Source of the DNA: Brasilonema angustatum HA4187-MV1
GTDB lineage: Bacteria > Cyanobacteriota > Cyanobacteriia > Cyanobacteriales > Nostocaceae
Reading direction: 5' to 3'
DNA: 59,244 bases
Assembly (NCBI GenBank): GCA_019359695.1
Contig: JAHHGV010000050.1
Location: 1 to 59,244, forward strand
Positions 43,961 to 49,517 of the stretch are shown piece after piece. Made by a program: the position numbers and the translations under genes. The notes under the pieces were generated by a model. It was not told where the DNA came from, searched no databases, and saw only the letters and a program-made list of their open reading frames with translations. Position 1 is the first letter of the stretch. The number at the start of each line of letters is the position of its first letter.

Positions 43961-45619
43961 ATGGCAAAGCCAATTGAATTTAATTTATTTGCACCTTACA
44001 ACGAAGCAGCTTCTTTAATTGGTTCTTTTTCTGATTGGGAACCAATTTCAATGAAAAAAGGTGAAGATGGTTATTTTCGCACAACTGTTGAATTAGAAGA
44101 TGGTGATTATAAATATAAATTTCGTGTGCAGTCAAAGTCTTGGTTTTTTGAACCAGACCAATGGGTAGATGTGACAGATCCCTATGCAACTGACATTGAT
44201 GAAATGAGTGGCAAGGATGACGGTGTTGTACACATCAAAGATGGGAAACGTGTTGTAGATACTTGTGTTTGGCAACACGACGATAAACATCTGCCCGCAA
44301 ACCAGGAATTAGTTATTTATGAATTGCACGTTGGTGACTTTTCTGGTGGTGAAGATGATCCACATGCACGAGGAAAGTACAAGCATGTCGTTGAGAAGTT
44401 AGATTACCTCAGTGAACTGGGAATTAACGCGGTTGAGTTAATGCCAATTAAAGAATATCCAGGAGATTATAGTTGGGGTTACAATCCACGTCACTTCTTT
44501 GCCCCAGAATCGAGTTACGGTCCGACATCAGGATTGAAAAATCTTGTTGATGAGTGCCATGCAAGAGGAATTCGTGTGATTATGGATGGTATTTATAATC
44601 ATTCAGAATCATCAGCTCCATTAACACAAATCGACCACGATTATTGGTATCATCACGAGCCTCGCGACCCCGATAATAACTGGGGACCAGAATTTAATTA
44701 CGAACACTATGACAAAAAATTAGAGATTTATCCCGCTCGTAAATTTATTGGTGATACAGTTCGTTTTTGGGTGGGTGAGTATCACCTTGATGGAATTCGC
44801 TACGATGCAGCACGGCAAATTGCTAACTATGATTTCATGCACTGGATAACGGAAGAAGCCAGAAATACTGCCAGCATGAAGCCTTTTTATAACATTGCCG
44901 AACATATTCCAGAAACGACTAGCATTACCAACGCTGATGGACCAATGGATGGCTGTTGGCATGATAGTTTCTATCATTGTATTAAGGATCATATCTGTGG
45001 TAAGACCTTTGATTTAGAACGCCTCAAAGATGCGATCGACGCAAAACGTCAAGGCTTCATGGGTGCTACAAATGTTGTGAATTACCTCACCAACCATGAT
45101 CATGATCGCTTAATGGTGGAATTAGGTAACAACAATATCTTTGATGAAGAAGCTTTTAGGCGGTTGAAGTTGGGAGCTGCTATCCTTTTAACAGCGATGG
45201 GTGTACCCATGCTTTGGATGGGTCAGGAATTTGGCGAGTATAAGCCGAATACACAAGAATCATCTAAAATTGAATGGGGATTGCTAGGTAATGATTTGAA
45301 CCATAGCTTGTTTGAATACTATAAAGGCTTAATACACCTGCGTAAAAGCAATCATGCTCTCTACACAGAAAATGTTGATTTCATCCACGAAAATCCAGAA
45401 GATAAAGTATTAGCTTATAGCCGTTGGAACGATGAAGGTTCTCGTGTTGTGGTTGTGGCTAATTTTTCAGAAAACTTCTTGGGCGAGTATCAAGTTTCTA
45501 ACTTCTCCAACAATGGCAAATGGCACGAGTGGACAGGCAATTATGATGTAGAAGCTAACGACGATCGCATTACCATTGATATTGGACCATATGAAGCTAA
45601 AGTGTTTGTTTGGCAGTAA
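43961..45619 (+). CDS. GH13 alpha-amylase family enzyme with CBM48 (copy A)
   Basis: This 552-aa protein has an N-terminal CBM48-like beta-sandwich (about 5-100; APYNEAASLIGSFSDWEPI) and a GH13 TIM barrel. Catalytic residues are in place: nucleophile Asp282 in DGIRYDAARQ, acid/base Glu314 in YNIAEHIPE and transition-state Asp380 in YLTNHDHDR. The domain order matches branching/debranching or trehalohydrolase-type enzymes acting on alpha-1,6 or maltooligosyl substrates; exact specificity cannot be settled. A paralogue lies at 52110-53777, with the CRISPR and cyanophycin genes between. Confidence 0.85.
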   Translation: MAKPIEFNLFAPYNEAASLIGSFSDWEPISMKKGEDGYFRTTVELEDGDYKYKFRVQSKSWFFEPDQWVDVTDPYATDIDEMSGKDDGVVHIKDGKRVVDTCVWQHDDKHLPANQELVIYELHVGDFSGGEDDPHARGKYKHVVEKLDYLSELGINAVELMPIKEYPGDYSWGYNPRHFFAPESSYGPTSGLKNLVDECHARGIRVIMDGIYNHSESSAPLTQIDHDYWYHHEPRDPDNNWGPEFNYEHYDKKLEIYPARKFIGDTVRFWVGEYHLDGIRYDAARQIANYDFMHWITEEARNTASMKPFYNIAEHIPETTSITNADGPMDGCWHDSFYHCIKDHICGKTFDLERLKDAIDAKRQGFMGATNVVNYLTNHDHDRLMVELGNNNIFDEEAFRRLKLGAAILLTAMGVPMLWMGQEFGEYKPNTQESSKIEWGLLGNDLNHSLFEYYKGLIHLRKSNHALYTENVDFIHENPEDKVLAYSRWNDEGSRVVVVANFSENFLGEYQVSNFSNNGKWHEWTGNYDVEANDDRITIDIGPYEAKVFVWQ

Positions 45620-45668
45620 ATCAGTTATTAGCTGTCAGCCATTAGTTGTTAGCCAAAGGTAATATAGA

Positions 45669-45696
45669 AATCCTAAATTATTCGTGATTTAGGATT
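45669..45696. terminator. Bidirectional hairpin after GH13 copy A
   Basis: AATCCTAAAT (45669-45678) pairs with ATTTAGGATT (45687-45696) around an 8-base loop, between convergent genes. Confidence 0.6.
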
Positions 45697-45784
45697 GCTA
45701 TATGCATAACTTTAACTAATTACACTTGGTTGTTAAAAAAGCTCTTACATCTCGGTGCAATGCCTGTTTACTTTTGATTTAATA

Positions 45785-46165
45785 CTAAGCACTGAGTTGA
45801 GTCATTTCAACGGGCATGGGTTGGATGGAAATGATGGGAATAGTTTCCACCAAAGAAACCGTATAAGCGGAAAGGTGTAAAAAATCGGACACAGGGTCAG
45901 ACAACAAAATCTTAAAGATCATCTCTCTAAGGTCGTTCGATATCTGGGATAAACCAGTCAGGGGGAAGCTGCGGCTTCCCATCTCTGTTTTTTGCGCCAA
46001 CACCGAATACTCAAAAAAAACGATACTTACCGCCTGACGCTGTTGTTGATTAATTCGTAACAAGATATGGTCGGTCAGTTCTATCCCCGTTGCTTTTGAT
46101 CCTGGTTCAAAGCAAACAGTCAGCGTATCGCTTGCTTCATCATATTTAACACTTGGCTTGCTCAT
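45785..46165 (-). CDS. DUF2283 domain protein, probable antitoxin partner
   Basis: This 126-aa protein has a DUF2283 start (VKYDEASDTLTVCFEPGSKATGIELTDHI), then a longer tail that ends IISIQPMPVEM. DUF2283 proteins are small, often second genes of two-gene toxin-antitoxin-like modules. Its start is 4 bp downstream of the stop of the frameshifted nuclease-like gene (46170-46503), in the same direction. The frame is open throughout. Confidence 0.75.
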   Translation of the reverse strand: MSKPSVKYDEASDTLTVCFEPGSKATGIELTDHILLRINQQQRQAVSIVFFEYSVLAQKTEMGSRSFPLTGLSQISNDLREMIFKILLSDPVSDFLHLSAYTVSLVETIPIISIQPMPVEMTQLSA

Positions 46166-46169
46166 ATAC

Positions 46170-46503
46170 TTAACCCATCACCTTTTGATATGCCGTGACT
46201 ACGTAGTTATTTGGTATAGGTTGACCCAATTCCCCTTCTTTAAAGCGACACAGAACAATAGCGACTATGTGGGTATTGTCAAAGGGTAAATCATCAAATG
46301 CCTTAGTAGTAACGATATTTTTGCGGATTCAATGGGTCTTGAGTCCGACGACCAGAACGAATGGTTTGTTTTAGTTCATCCTCACATTCTTCCATCTCTG
46401 GATGGTTTTCTGGATCAATAACGTGTTCCCATCGCTCCTCAGTTATATAAATATTGTTACTGTAGCGGTCGTACACACTCCAACGTTTATCATCAATGTT
46501 CAT
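46170..46503 (-). pseudogene. BECR-fold nuclease-like toxin gene with one extra base
   Basis: The frame starts at ATG 46503 (MNIDDKRWSVYDRYSNNIYI) and meets TAA at 46303-46305 after PQKYRYY. Removing one T at about 46305 restores KAFDDLPFDNTHIVAIVLCR and then GELGQPIPNNYVVTAYQKVM, ending with TAA at 46170-46172, for about 110 aa in all. The pattern ITEERWEHV, YYK and VVTAYQ resembles the barnase/EndoU/ColicinE5/RelE-like nuclease fold. Upstream-most position before the DUF2283 gene fits a toxin. Family naming is from pattern only. Confidence 0.72.
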
Positions 46504-46621
46504 GATATGGCTTGTGTCATTATCAAGCGTTTACGACGATATTTTTAGTTTAGAGCAAACGGGCATTTAGCCAAGAACCGTAGGAAAATCATTAAGGGAT
46601 ATAGGCGAATACATCTAGCAA

Positions 46622-47125
46622 GTTTCCAACTAATCCGATTTAACCCAATCGGTAGGGGATGCTGGATTTTCTGATGGTACGTTTGATGCTGGCGTTTCCA
46701 ACTAATCCGATTTAACCCAATCGGTAGGGTTTTATTTACTGCAAAAGTTGCAGGTACAATGAAAATGTTTCCAACTATAGCGCTTCTCAGTTGCGTACAA
46801 TACACAGCTGTAGAGACGTAGCATGCTACGTCTCTACATTATTCGTGGTGGTGTATGTGATTCAAATGAGAACCGCTATAATCCGATTTAACCCAATCGG
46901 TAGGGGATATAAATACTACCCATGGACGTGGGACTACAGAGTTTCCAACTAATCCGATTTAACCCAATCGGTAGGGAATTTGTCGTCTTAGGTGCATTAC
47001 TACCCTCTCTAGTTTCCAACTAATCCGATTTAACCCAATCGGTAGGGTCGTTTTATTCTAGCCCCCTAGGGTATAGACTCGAGGCACTTGTTTCCAACTA
47101 ATCCGATTTAACCCAATCGGTAGGG
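46622..47125 (-). CRISPR. CRISPR array, six 36-bp repeats, five spacers, one repeat interrupted
   Basis: Repeats start at 46622, 46694, 46767 (interrupted), 46941, 47012 and 47090. Each is 36 bp, beginning GTTTCCAACT and ending CAATCGGTAGGG, with an internal CCGATT..AATCGG stem. Repeats appear identical apart from the insertion in repeat 3. Spacers are 36, 37, 35, 35 and 42 bp. On the minus strand the repeat ends TTGGAAAC, matching the 3' end of cyanobacterial repeats and the 8-nt crRNA handle, so transcription is probably leftward with the leader at right. No cas genes are in the window. The subtype cannot be fixed. Confidence 0.95.
46778..46878. mobile_element. 101-bp MITE inserted in CRISPR repeat 3
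   Basis: The element runs from TAGCG (46778) to CGCTA (46878) with inverted ends TAGCG(C/G)TTCTCA(G/T)TTG and is flanked by TA duplicated at 46776-46777 and 46879-46880, the signature of IS630/Tc1-mariner-type transposition. It splits the CRISPR repeat after its eleventh base; removing it and one TA regenerates the repeat exactly. The middle (46809-46838) is a 30-bp perfect palindrome. Confidence 0.93.
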
Positions 47126-47390
47126 AGTTCGTCTAGCAGCCCTTACCCAGTAAGAGTTTCAGCCGCCAAATCGACACCACTCTCAAAACCATTATATATG
47201 TTGTGCAAAATTGAGCAACACACATACCTCAAACCCTTACCCTACAAGCAATCGACACCACTCAACGAAAAATATAGGGTTTCAGCGATTTGGCGAGTGG
47301 TGTCGATGCACCACCTAAAAATCACCCCTAATCTTCCCCAAACCTAGATTACGCAATACTTTTAGGTGTTGAGTGAGTGTAGAGACATAG
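47126..47390. other. Putative CRISPR leader with duplicated and inverted blocks
   Basis: The block CGACACCACTC occurs at about 47171 and 47251, each after a CCCTTACCC segment, and its reverse complement GAGTGGTGTCG at about 47297. This repeat pattern directly next to repeat 6 is unlike the left flank. It fits the leader side if the array is read leftward, but could also be an eroded element. Confidence 0.45.
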
Positions 47391-47595
47391 CCCTATGGCT
47401 GACGCCACGGCTGCGCCTAACGGGTTCGTCAGTCGCTACAACGGGGGGGAACCCCCCTTCGGGTTCACCAGTCACCTACGGCGGTAAACCCGCCTGCAGC
47501 GCTGGATTCACCGCAACGCGCTGACTCACATGCTACATCTCTACATCTCTACATTGTTGGTGATAGTGTATGTGATTCAAATGAGAACCACTCTA
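47378..47595. mobile_element. Second, disrupted MITE copy containing a GC-rich repeat
   Basis: The right arm 47529-47595 (CATGCTACATCTCTACA and GTGATTCAAATGAGAACC) closely matches the right half of the MITE at 46778-46878. The left core TGTAGAGACATAG at 47378-47390 matches the other half of its palindrome. Between them, 47391-47528 is a GC-rich dispersed repeat (GACGCCACGGCTGCGCC), inserted into the palindrome centre. The far-left end is not clear. Confidence 0.65.
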
Positions 47596-47606
47596 TTCAC
47601 ATCAAC

Positions 47607-49517
47607 TTACAAAACCGTTCCAATCTCCTTTAAATAAACCCGTGTAAAAGGTTCATCTACACCAAGAGTATACTCTTCTATCAAACCCTTGCGCCTAATA
47701 GAAATGTTGTCTCCATTTTTGATCACAACAGTTGAATCATCAAAAACATCCCGCGTTAACGTCATCTCAGTTTCTGTAGGATTGTTTAAAACTACCATGT
47801 TACTTCCGTAGTAAAACATTCCTTCATTTTCCAAAACGTCTTCTTTGTATTCAGCAATCAGCATATCAAGCTTGGGATTACGCAACAAAGAAAGGATATT
47901 GGTGTTGTAATCTGGACTCAAAATTTTTGCCGAACGATTTATGAAAACACCATCACGACAAACAGCGCCTATTGTCCAATCTGGGTGTTGTAAAAGAATA
48001 TGGTCAATTGTTTCTTGAATTTGCTGAACCGAGATATTGTTGAACGTGACTATTGGTATTCTGGCATCTGTACCCACTTGATAAAAGGTTTCCAGAATGT
48101 GTGAGGGTACATCAACGCTTTCACCGATAGAAGGCTTGAGATGCATCAAAATTCCTGGCGCAGCGTTGATTTCTAAGATAGAAAAGTCGTTAGACTTCCA
48201 AGATTCGCTAAGATTTGGTGCAATAACATCAATCCCCAGGCAAACAAGGCGGAAGTGTTGGGCAATATCTTGTGCCAAAATGATATTGTCAGGATGAACA
48301 GTGCGGGTTGCATCAATGCTCACACCTCCAGCCGAGAGGTTAGCAACTTTGCGAAGAGAAACGTTGCGATCTTTCTCAACGACGCTGTCCAATGACAAGC
48401 CCTGTTGTTCAAGATACTGTTCCATCGCTTCATCCGACTGAATTTTCGTCATCGGCGAGGTGGGTGTATCCAAACGCCCAGGTTTTCGGTTTTCGTCTCG
48501 GATTAACTGTTGAATGGTTGATTTTCCATCACCCACAACCCATGCCGGACGACGTTCAATAGCAGCAACAAATCTGCCATTCACACACAACACGCGGAAG
48601 TCTGACCCCACAATGCTTTTTTCAACAATAACTCGGGTTGGCTCGTTTTCTGGAATTGCCTCAAGCGCCCTTCTAAAAGCAGATTTGAGTTCATACTCGT
48701 CTCGTACTTCGGCGGTGACTCCAATTCCTTTGTGACCAGCCACAGGTTTGACTGCTACTGGGTAGTTAATGTCTCTAGCTACTGCAAGAGCCTGCTTTTC
48801 TGAATTCACAATATCACCTTTCGGCACTGGAAAACCCAAGGTTTTTAGAAACGCTTTGCAGTCATCTTTGCGCGTGGTGAAGTCGGAATCTAGATGGCTA
48901 TCGCTATCAAATGTCGTTGCTATTCCCCGAACCTGTTTTTTGCCGTATCCGTACTGTGTCAGTCCTTCATCCCATAGATAAAAAGCGGGAATACCTTTTG
49001 TGTCAGCTGTACGCAGTAAAGCGTAAACTGTAGGACCACCGTAGACTGATTGCCGGAACTTACTTTGAAGTGTTAAAAGTTGCTCTTCAAAATTAATGTC
49101 TTTGTGCTGAGTTATGGCTTCAAACCAATCCCATACAAAGTAAAGTACACCTCTAGTAGTACGCTCGTGAAGCGATTGTATGCTAATTGTCGCATAACTT
49201 TCATATGACTTGATACCCCAATGGTCGAGGTGTAAGCCCATATCTAGCTTTCCGACTTCTGACACGGTGCGGGCAAACAGATGAGCATAGGAATCAAATG
49301 TTTGGTCGCGCAGGTTTGGGTAGCGATCGCTAATAATTGAGACGTAATCCTCAATCGGCAGAGGTTTTGTGAACTCAGTTACAGCAAAATCAAAGACCAA
49401 CGCGCCTGCGTCCAAGTAAGGATTTGGTCCTATGTAATGCTTGAACTTGAAGATGTCGAATGCATCAGTTTTTCTGGCATTGATGCGAACTGTATTGGTG
49501 ATTTTGTCTTGAACCAT
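47607..49517 (-). CDS. cphA2: Cyanophycin synthetase 2 (short form)
   Basis: This 636-aa protein has the cyanophycin synthetase N-terminal domain (about 1-170) and an ATP-grasp domain (about 215-470; FPVPKGDIVNSEKQALAVAR, KPVAGHKGIGVT, VIVEKSIVGSDFRV, EINAAPG). The C-terminal Mur-ligase-like part is cut to about 160 residues without its P-loop, versus about 870-900 aa for full CphA1. This is the layout reported for CphA2 of nitrogen-fixing cyanobacteria, which polymerises beta-Asp-Arg dipeptides rather than single amino acids. Cyanophycinase lies 1.5 kb away on the other strand. Confidence 0.88.
   Translation of the reverse strand: MVQDKITNTVRINARKTDAFDIFKFKHYIGPNPYLDAGALVFDFAVTEFTKPLPIEDYVSIISDRYPNLRDQTFDSYAHLFARTVSEVGKLDMGLHLDHWGIKSYESYATISIQSLHERTTRGVLYFVWDWFEAITQHKDINFEEQLLTLQSKFRQSVYGGPTVYALLRTADTKGIPAFYLWDEGLTQYGYGKKQVRGIATTFDSDSHLDSDFTTRKDDCKAFLKTLGFPVPKGDIVNSEKQALAVARDINYPVAVKPVAGHKGIGVTAEVRDEYELKSAFRRALEAIPENEPTRVIVEKSIVGSDFRVLCVNGRFVAAIERRPAWVVGDGKSTIQQLIRDENRKPGRLDTPTSPMTKIQSDEAMEQYLEQQGLSLDSVVEKDRNVSLRKVANLSAGGVSIDATRTVHPDNIILAQDIAQHFRLVCLGIDVIAPNLSESWKSNDFSILEINAAPGILMHLKPSIGESVDVPSHILETFYQVGTDARIPIVTFNNISVQQIQETIDHILLQHPDWTIGAVCRDGVFINRSAKILSPDYNTNILSLLRNPKLDMLIAEYKEDVLENEGMFYYGSNMVVLNNPTETEMTLTRDVFDDSTVVIKNGDNISIRRKGLIEEYTLGVDEPFTRVYLKEIGTVL

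Follow-up and report, generated by a model that had tools for sequence, protein, structure and literature searches.

In the window, by which we mean the whole 59,244-nucleotide stretch of Brasilonema angustatum HA4187-MV1 DNA analysed here, one repeat of a six-repeat CRISPR array is split by a 101-bp element with the features of a MITE. The sequence bears the marks of the insertion itself, apparently that of a non-autonomous IS630/Tc1-type MITE at a TA of the repeat. In our reading, the MITE was moved in trans and struck by chance an array that is itself served in trans, leaving the spacer downstream of the split, spacer 4, silent. Taken as a whole, we regard this account as having a good probability of being correct.

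Structure of the split repeat

The array spans positions 46622-47125 and runs leftward, from 47125 down to 46622, with the repeat CCCTACCGATTGGGTTAAATCGGATTAGTTGGAAAC. Counted from the leader, repeats 1 (47090..47125), 2 (47012..47047), 3 (46941..46976), 5 (46694..46729) and the leader-distal repeat 6 (46622..46657) are perfect, all on the minus strand. The remaining copy (46767-46905) is interrupted after 11 bases as read on the plus strand. On the minus strand, its 5' part with the stem CCGATT/AATCGG lies at 46879..46905, and its 3' part with the presumed 8-nt handle TTGGAAAC at 46767..46777. Between the two parts sits the element (46778..46878), which starts with TAGCGCTTCTCAGT and finishes with AATGAGAACCGCTA. 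It is flanked by a TA target-site duplication, the left copy of which (46776..46777) also belongs to the original repeat and the right copy of which occupies 46879..46880. Excision of 46778-46878 along with one TA gives the exact 36-nt consensus repeat. The preliminary description of this DNA, which reported that a 101-bp element bounded by inverted ends and a TA duplication lies inside a CRISPR repeat, is accurate to the base, including the rebuilt repeat. It also placed the split correctly, but the leader-based count makes the split repeat number 4, and the spacer it called spacer 2 is spacer 4.

The locus is recognisable as a CRISPR array by its identical repeats, its unique spacers of even length (35-42 nt) and its conserved leader. 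The leader (47126..47360, minus strand, right end approximate) is conserved with those of four other arrays of the same genome, here called C60, C61a, C61b and C93 after their contigs. Spacers 3 (46906..46940), 4 (46730..46766) and 5 (46658..46693, with intact repeats on both sides) follow the same strand, and all five window spacers, compared with the fetched loci, match the window array only.

The element and its family

The element meets its own complement at the two ends (TAGCGCTTCTC ... GAGAACCGCTA), which pair at 10 of 11 positions when the letters are read by eye, and folds on itself around a perfect 30-bp palindrome at its centre (46809..46838). It is short, bears terminal inverted repeats and holds no transposase gene, as is typical of a MITE. 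With the 101-bp query, the host genome (8.5 Mb in 98 contigs) gives at least 51 matches at E 0.001 or better, 40 of 55 candidates having been scored; many of them span the palindrome alone, on both strands. Among the matches listed, eight copies run end to end, the window copy included (seven at 96-100% identity, one at 74%); one of the seven, at G000:C72:128-228, is 100% identical to the window copy. Matches occur in all seven genomes of the genus, this one included. In the fetched loci, 24 distinct full-length copies have flanks that can be read, and 21 of them have TA on both sides. Judged by its copies and target-site duplications, the element is a real MITE and not a chance likeness, in line with what had been proposed earlier.

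The fragmented assembly, with its near-identical MITE copies, raises the question of whether a repeated element was wrongly joined into the array. Both junctions, however, preserve the repeat halves and the TA duplication to the base, and TA flanks both sides of 21 of 24 copies of the family, which makes such an artefact extremely unlikely. We therefore keep to a genuine insertion.

A 1.06-kb element elsewhere in the genome (C64:129-1191) has ends that match those of the MITE. It also encodes a 131-aa frame with a hit to the DDE_3 transposase domain (PF13358, 6.3e-22), a domain absent from the MITE itself. The frame of this element is broken, no stretch free of stops being longer than 143 aa. 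A relative with variant ends (TACAGCGGTTTTC) is found on contig C71, where the longest stretch without a stop measures 203 aa. Contig C24 starts, and contig C25 finishes, with a transposase tail of this family, so that intact copies may be unassembled, lost in contig breaks. Transposase relatives (E 1e-20 or better) are found in seven of seven genus genomes, and among 22 loci checked with two changes allowed, TATAGCG-type ends on both sides are seen for the C64 element (two loci) and for loci L172 and L178 of another genome of the genus, G002. An IS630-type transposase with the same ends, which the preliminary description suggested looking for, is thus present, though in decayed form. The DDE_3 domain of the partner and the TA flanks of the MITE are marks of the IS630/Tc1-mariner group, and the data fit a MITE of the IS630/Tc1 type, which would have been moved in trans by a related transposase.

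Sister arrays and cas genes

The window repeat is found at 124 places in the genome (up to 3 mismatches), including the five intact copies of the window. C60 holds 29 repeats, C61a 14 intact repeats followed by a cut one, C61b 21 intact repeats followed by a truncated end, and C93 55 repeats followed by a decayed last one. The leaders of these four arrays and of the window array align across about 240 bases. Genes for a WYL protein, a RelA/SpoT-like protein, a reverse transcriptase, Cas1 and Cas2 lie between C61a and C61b, and Cmr2-, Cmr3-, Cmr4- and Cmr6-like genes follow on the same contig from about 7 kb past C61b (C61, about 208.7-214.7 kb). The Cmr-like genes score above the Pfam cut-offs for Cmr2_N, Cmr3 and RAMP, while by NCBIfam the Cmr2-, Cmr4- and Cmr6-like genes score under the curated cut-offs. 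All three Cas6 matches in the genome are on contigs other than that of the window: two on C81, alongside a Csm (III-A) locus, and one on C92, within a I-D locus that has its own repeat. With a Csm locus beside two of the Cas6 genes, there is more than one candidate for the effector and the Cas6 that use the window repeat. A related leader is present on a plasmid of the cyanobacterium TIOX110, next to cas2 and cas1 and about 9 kb away from a Cas10/Cmr2 gene.

Of the two readings offered earlier for an array with no cas genes nearby, decaying or served in trans, the second is most likely; decay is not supported, because every repeat but the split one is perfect and four further arrays share the leader. 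The window array would be part of a multi-array system, probably of type III (Cmr-like), with RT-Cas1-Cas2 adaptation genes, and would be served in trans by Cas6 encoded elsewhere.

The sister arrays display several features of their own. In C60 (L030 8954-9353), the first six leader-side repeats finish with GGAAAA and not GGAAAC, a pattern to be expected if the leader-side repeat is the template for new ones. In C93 (L031 4257-4400, 7492-7642), neighbouring spacers are near-duplicate or overlapping, with a 36/35-nt pair and two spacers that have ATTCACTAGGTGAGCAAGC in common. On C61 (L029 9582-17430), the two like-leader arrays surround the WYL-to-Cas2 genes, and the first of them ends in a repeat fused to a truncated MITE.

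Predicted effect on crRNA processing

The insertion point lies after ...CGGATTA, between the stem CCGATT/AATCGG and TTGGAAAC, which we take to be the handle of spacer 4 by the 8-nt handle rule. The separation of stem and handle that had been described holds, and all three leader-side repeats are intact. Because the insertion separates the Cas6 stem from the handle, cleavage in repeat 4 is probably lost, and spacers 3 and 4 would remain joined in one long RNA. Spacer 4, deprived of a proper 5' handle, probably yields no normal crRNA and would be functionally silent. The earlier account of the affected spacers left out spacer 3, whose 3' processing site sits in split repeat 4 and is taken away by the same cut. 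We infer that spacer 3 loses its processed 3' end. It would retain its handle, and as type III systems trim crRNA 3' ends anyway, it may still mature by 3' trimming. Spacers 1, 2 and 5 should be normal, given transcription read-through, and acquisition at the leader should likewise be unaffected.

Predicted folds offer a further level of detail. Pairing of the stem amounts to 0.60-0.62 in the rebuilt intact context versus 0.05-0.06 with the MITE in place; in three intact contexts of the window array it reaches about 0.8, 0.8 and 0.43. The MITE is not special in this respect, since 50 of 200 shuffled inserts lower the pairing to the same degree or further. In addition, the stem of the split repeat could still be held by Cas6. 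The self-pairing of the MITE, which extends up to the TA duplications, would even allow the element to be held out as an RNA side helix, with stem and handle rejoined and Cas6 still cutting. We consider this very unlikely; if true, the insertion would be nearly neutral, and a self-folding element would be tolerated inside a CRISPR repeat. Our preferred reading remains the loss of cleavage in repeat 4.

The palindrome of the MITE is terminator-like on both strands, and a terminator role had been suggested for it. This proposal turns out weak: the region has 3 such sites, where shuffled sequences have 1.3 on average (sd 1.2), and the tail on the leftward side, GCTGTGTATT, has no T run. A weak leftward promoter-like site inside the MITE (9 of 12), through which the MITE could also change transcription of spacers 4 and 5, is no evidence either, with 1 site found and a shuffle mean of 1.9. 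The sole Rfam match across 45000-49000 is sub-threshold (PrrB_RsmZ, 18.7 bits vs 44).

Chance, targeting and selection

TA is found at 6.5% of window positions. If this rate is applied to the whole genome, an insertion at a random TA would fall in such a repeat with a chance of about 7 in 10,000 (about 126 repeats with 3 TA each in 8.5 Mb). A single hit needs no special cause, and the insertion would best be viewed as a chance hit.

Two less neutral explanations can be weighed against this one. According to the first, the MITE family targets this very TA of the CRISPR repeat, and the end of C61a looks like a second case. There the last repeat, ...CGGATTAG, joins a 71-bp MITE piece that is 89% identical, in the same orientation and with nearly the same cut site; in addition, AACTA stands at the left of 4 of 24 MITE copies by an eye count that includes the window copy. 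Against targeting, the flanks of the 24 copies display no fixed motif past the TA by eye, and the MITE piece at C61a is without its end at the junction, its far side being DNA other than the rest of the repeat. Loss of the 3' end at the same base also happens in some other terminal or lone repeats, without a MITE in C93 and in genome G029, and beside a bare palindrome in G006:C1. Targeting is in our view highly improbable. C61a was not counted as a second insertion, as the MITE end is missing at the junction and no repeat half lies beyond.

The second explanation holds that the insertion was selected for silencing an autoimmune spacer 4. It draws on the fact that this is precisely the spacer whose handle is cut off. 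Yet spacer 4 has no second match in its own genome at up to 3 mismatches, and self-targeting was rejected on this ground. Its matches to phage records are limited to two records with 19-nt stretches at E 0.5, which is chance level, and one 22-mer taken from it has 0 matches in viral contigs. Selection of this kind is exceedingly improbable, and a chance hit is again the reading that we prefer. For spacer 5, a 25-mer likewise gave 0 matches in viral contigs.

The locus and its junction in related genomes

The six other genus genomes match this locus from about 47600 rightward. To the left of that point, a long match is seen in G005 alone (44174-45700, set apart by 0.9 kb of other DNA), while G001 and G006 give short matches at 47455-47518 and G001 also one palindrome match. 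The window array is absent from the locus stretches read in these six relatives, and the search proposed earlier for the same array without the element returned no such version at the locus. Same-leader arrays are found elsewhere in G003, G004 and G006; some stretches of G006 read N, and an insertion there could be missed.

Three junction searches went further afield. A core repeat followed by a non-T at the second next base occurs at four places in three of 217 family genomes, a search that sees this exact core only. Two of the places are the window and C61a, and the others are terminal or lone repeats of G006 and G029. A looser junction pattern (3 mismatches) is unspecific, occurring in at least 149 of the 217 genomes, with the window as the one exact match among the matches listed. 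The exact junction pattern, searched in the genome_contigs collection, from which own or very near records were possibly left out, gave two contigs, both Afipia, taken as chance.

Further MITE-like sequence lies close to leaders. To the right of the window leader, 47378-47592 holds a degraded MITE copy, in which 47541-47592 corresponds to MITE positions 49-100 at 88% identity; G005, close to the place that matches, has a similar palindrome with a different insert. On G006:C4 (L163 about 1796-1970), a leader and a single repeat are followed by about 36 nt of spacer-like DNA and then by a MITE, one end of which is decayed; this is perhaps an array truncated next to a MITE.

Comparison with known systems

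Events of this type are already in print, and the window is a clean but ordinary further example, which leaves the general view of CRISPR or MITEs unchanged. Its value lies in being a clean natural case in which a transposon uncouples the Cas6 stem from the handle at one repeat while the remaining array is intact, and the split array could serve for testing to what extent the processing of crRNA requires a continuous repeat.

IS630/Tc1-mariner-type MITEs are known for a TA duplication and for ends in common with a transposon that encodes a DDE_3 transposase. The window MITE resembles them in its TA duplication and in sharing its ends with a transposon in which a fragment of a DDE_3 transposase is encoded. 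It differs in its central 30-bp palindrome, which is also matched alone in the genome.

As to insertions in CRISPR loci, passages of PMC3542288 and PMC3718332 show none in a CRISPR repeat. From manual curation of DbCRISPR, PMC4852346 reports 59 CRISPRs whose repeats are interrupted by ISs or MITEs, and describes target duplications for examples. These cases are alike in having an IS or MITE inside a direct repeat, and one of them is in a cyanobacterium: a repeat of Microcystis aeruginosa NIES-843 holds a 180-bp MITE. That case involves another MITE and another host, with a 5-bp duplication in place of the TA seen in the window. Passages of PMC10359306 describe mobile elements, MITEs included, in CRISPR-Cas loci, where IS and MITE insertions inactivate cas genes. 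In those loci cas genes are struck, whereas in the window the insertion strikes one repeat of one array and would affect only one or two spacers.
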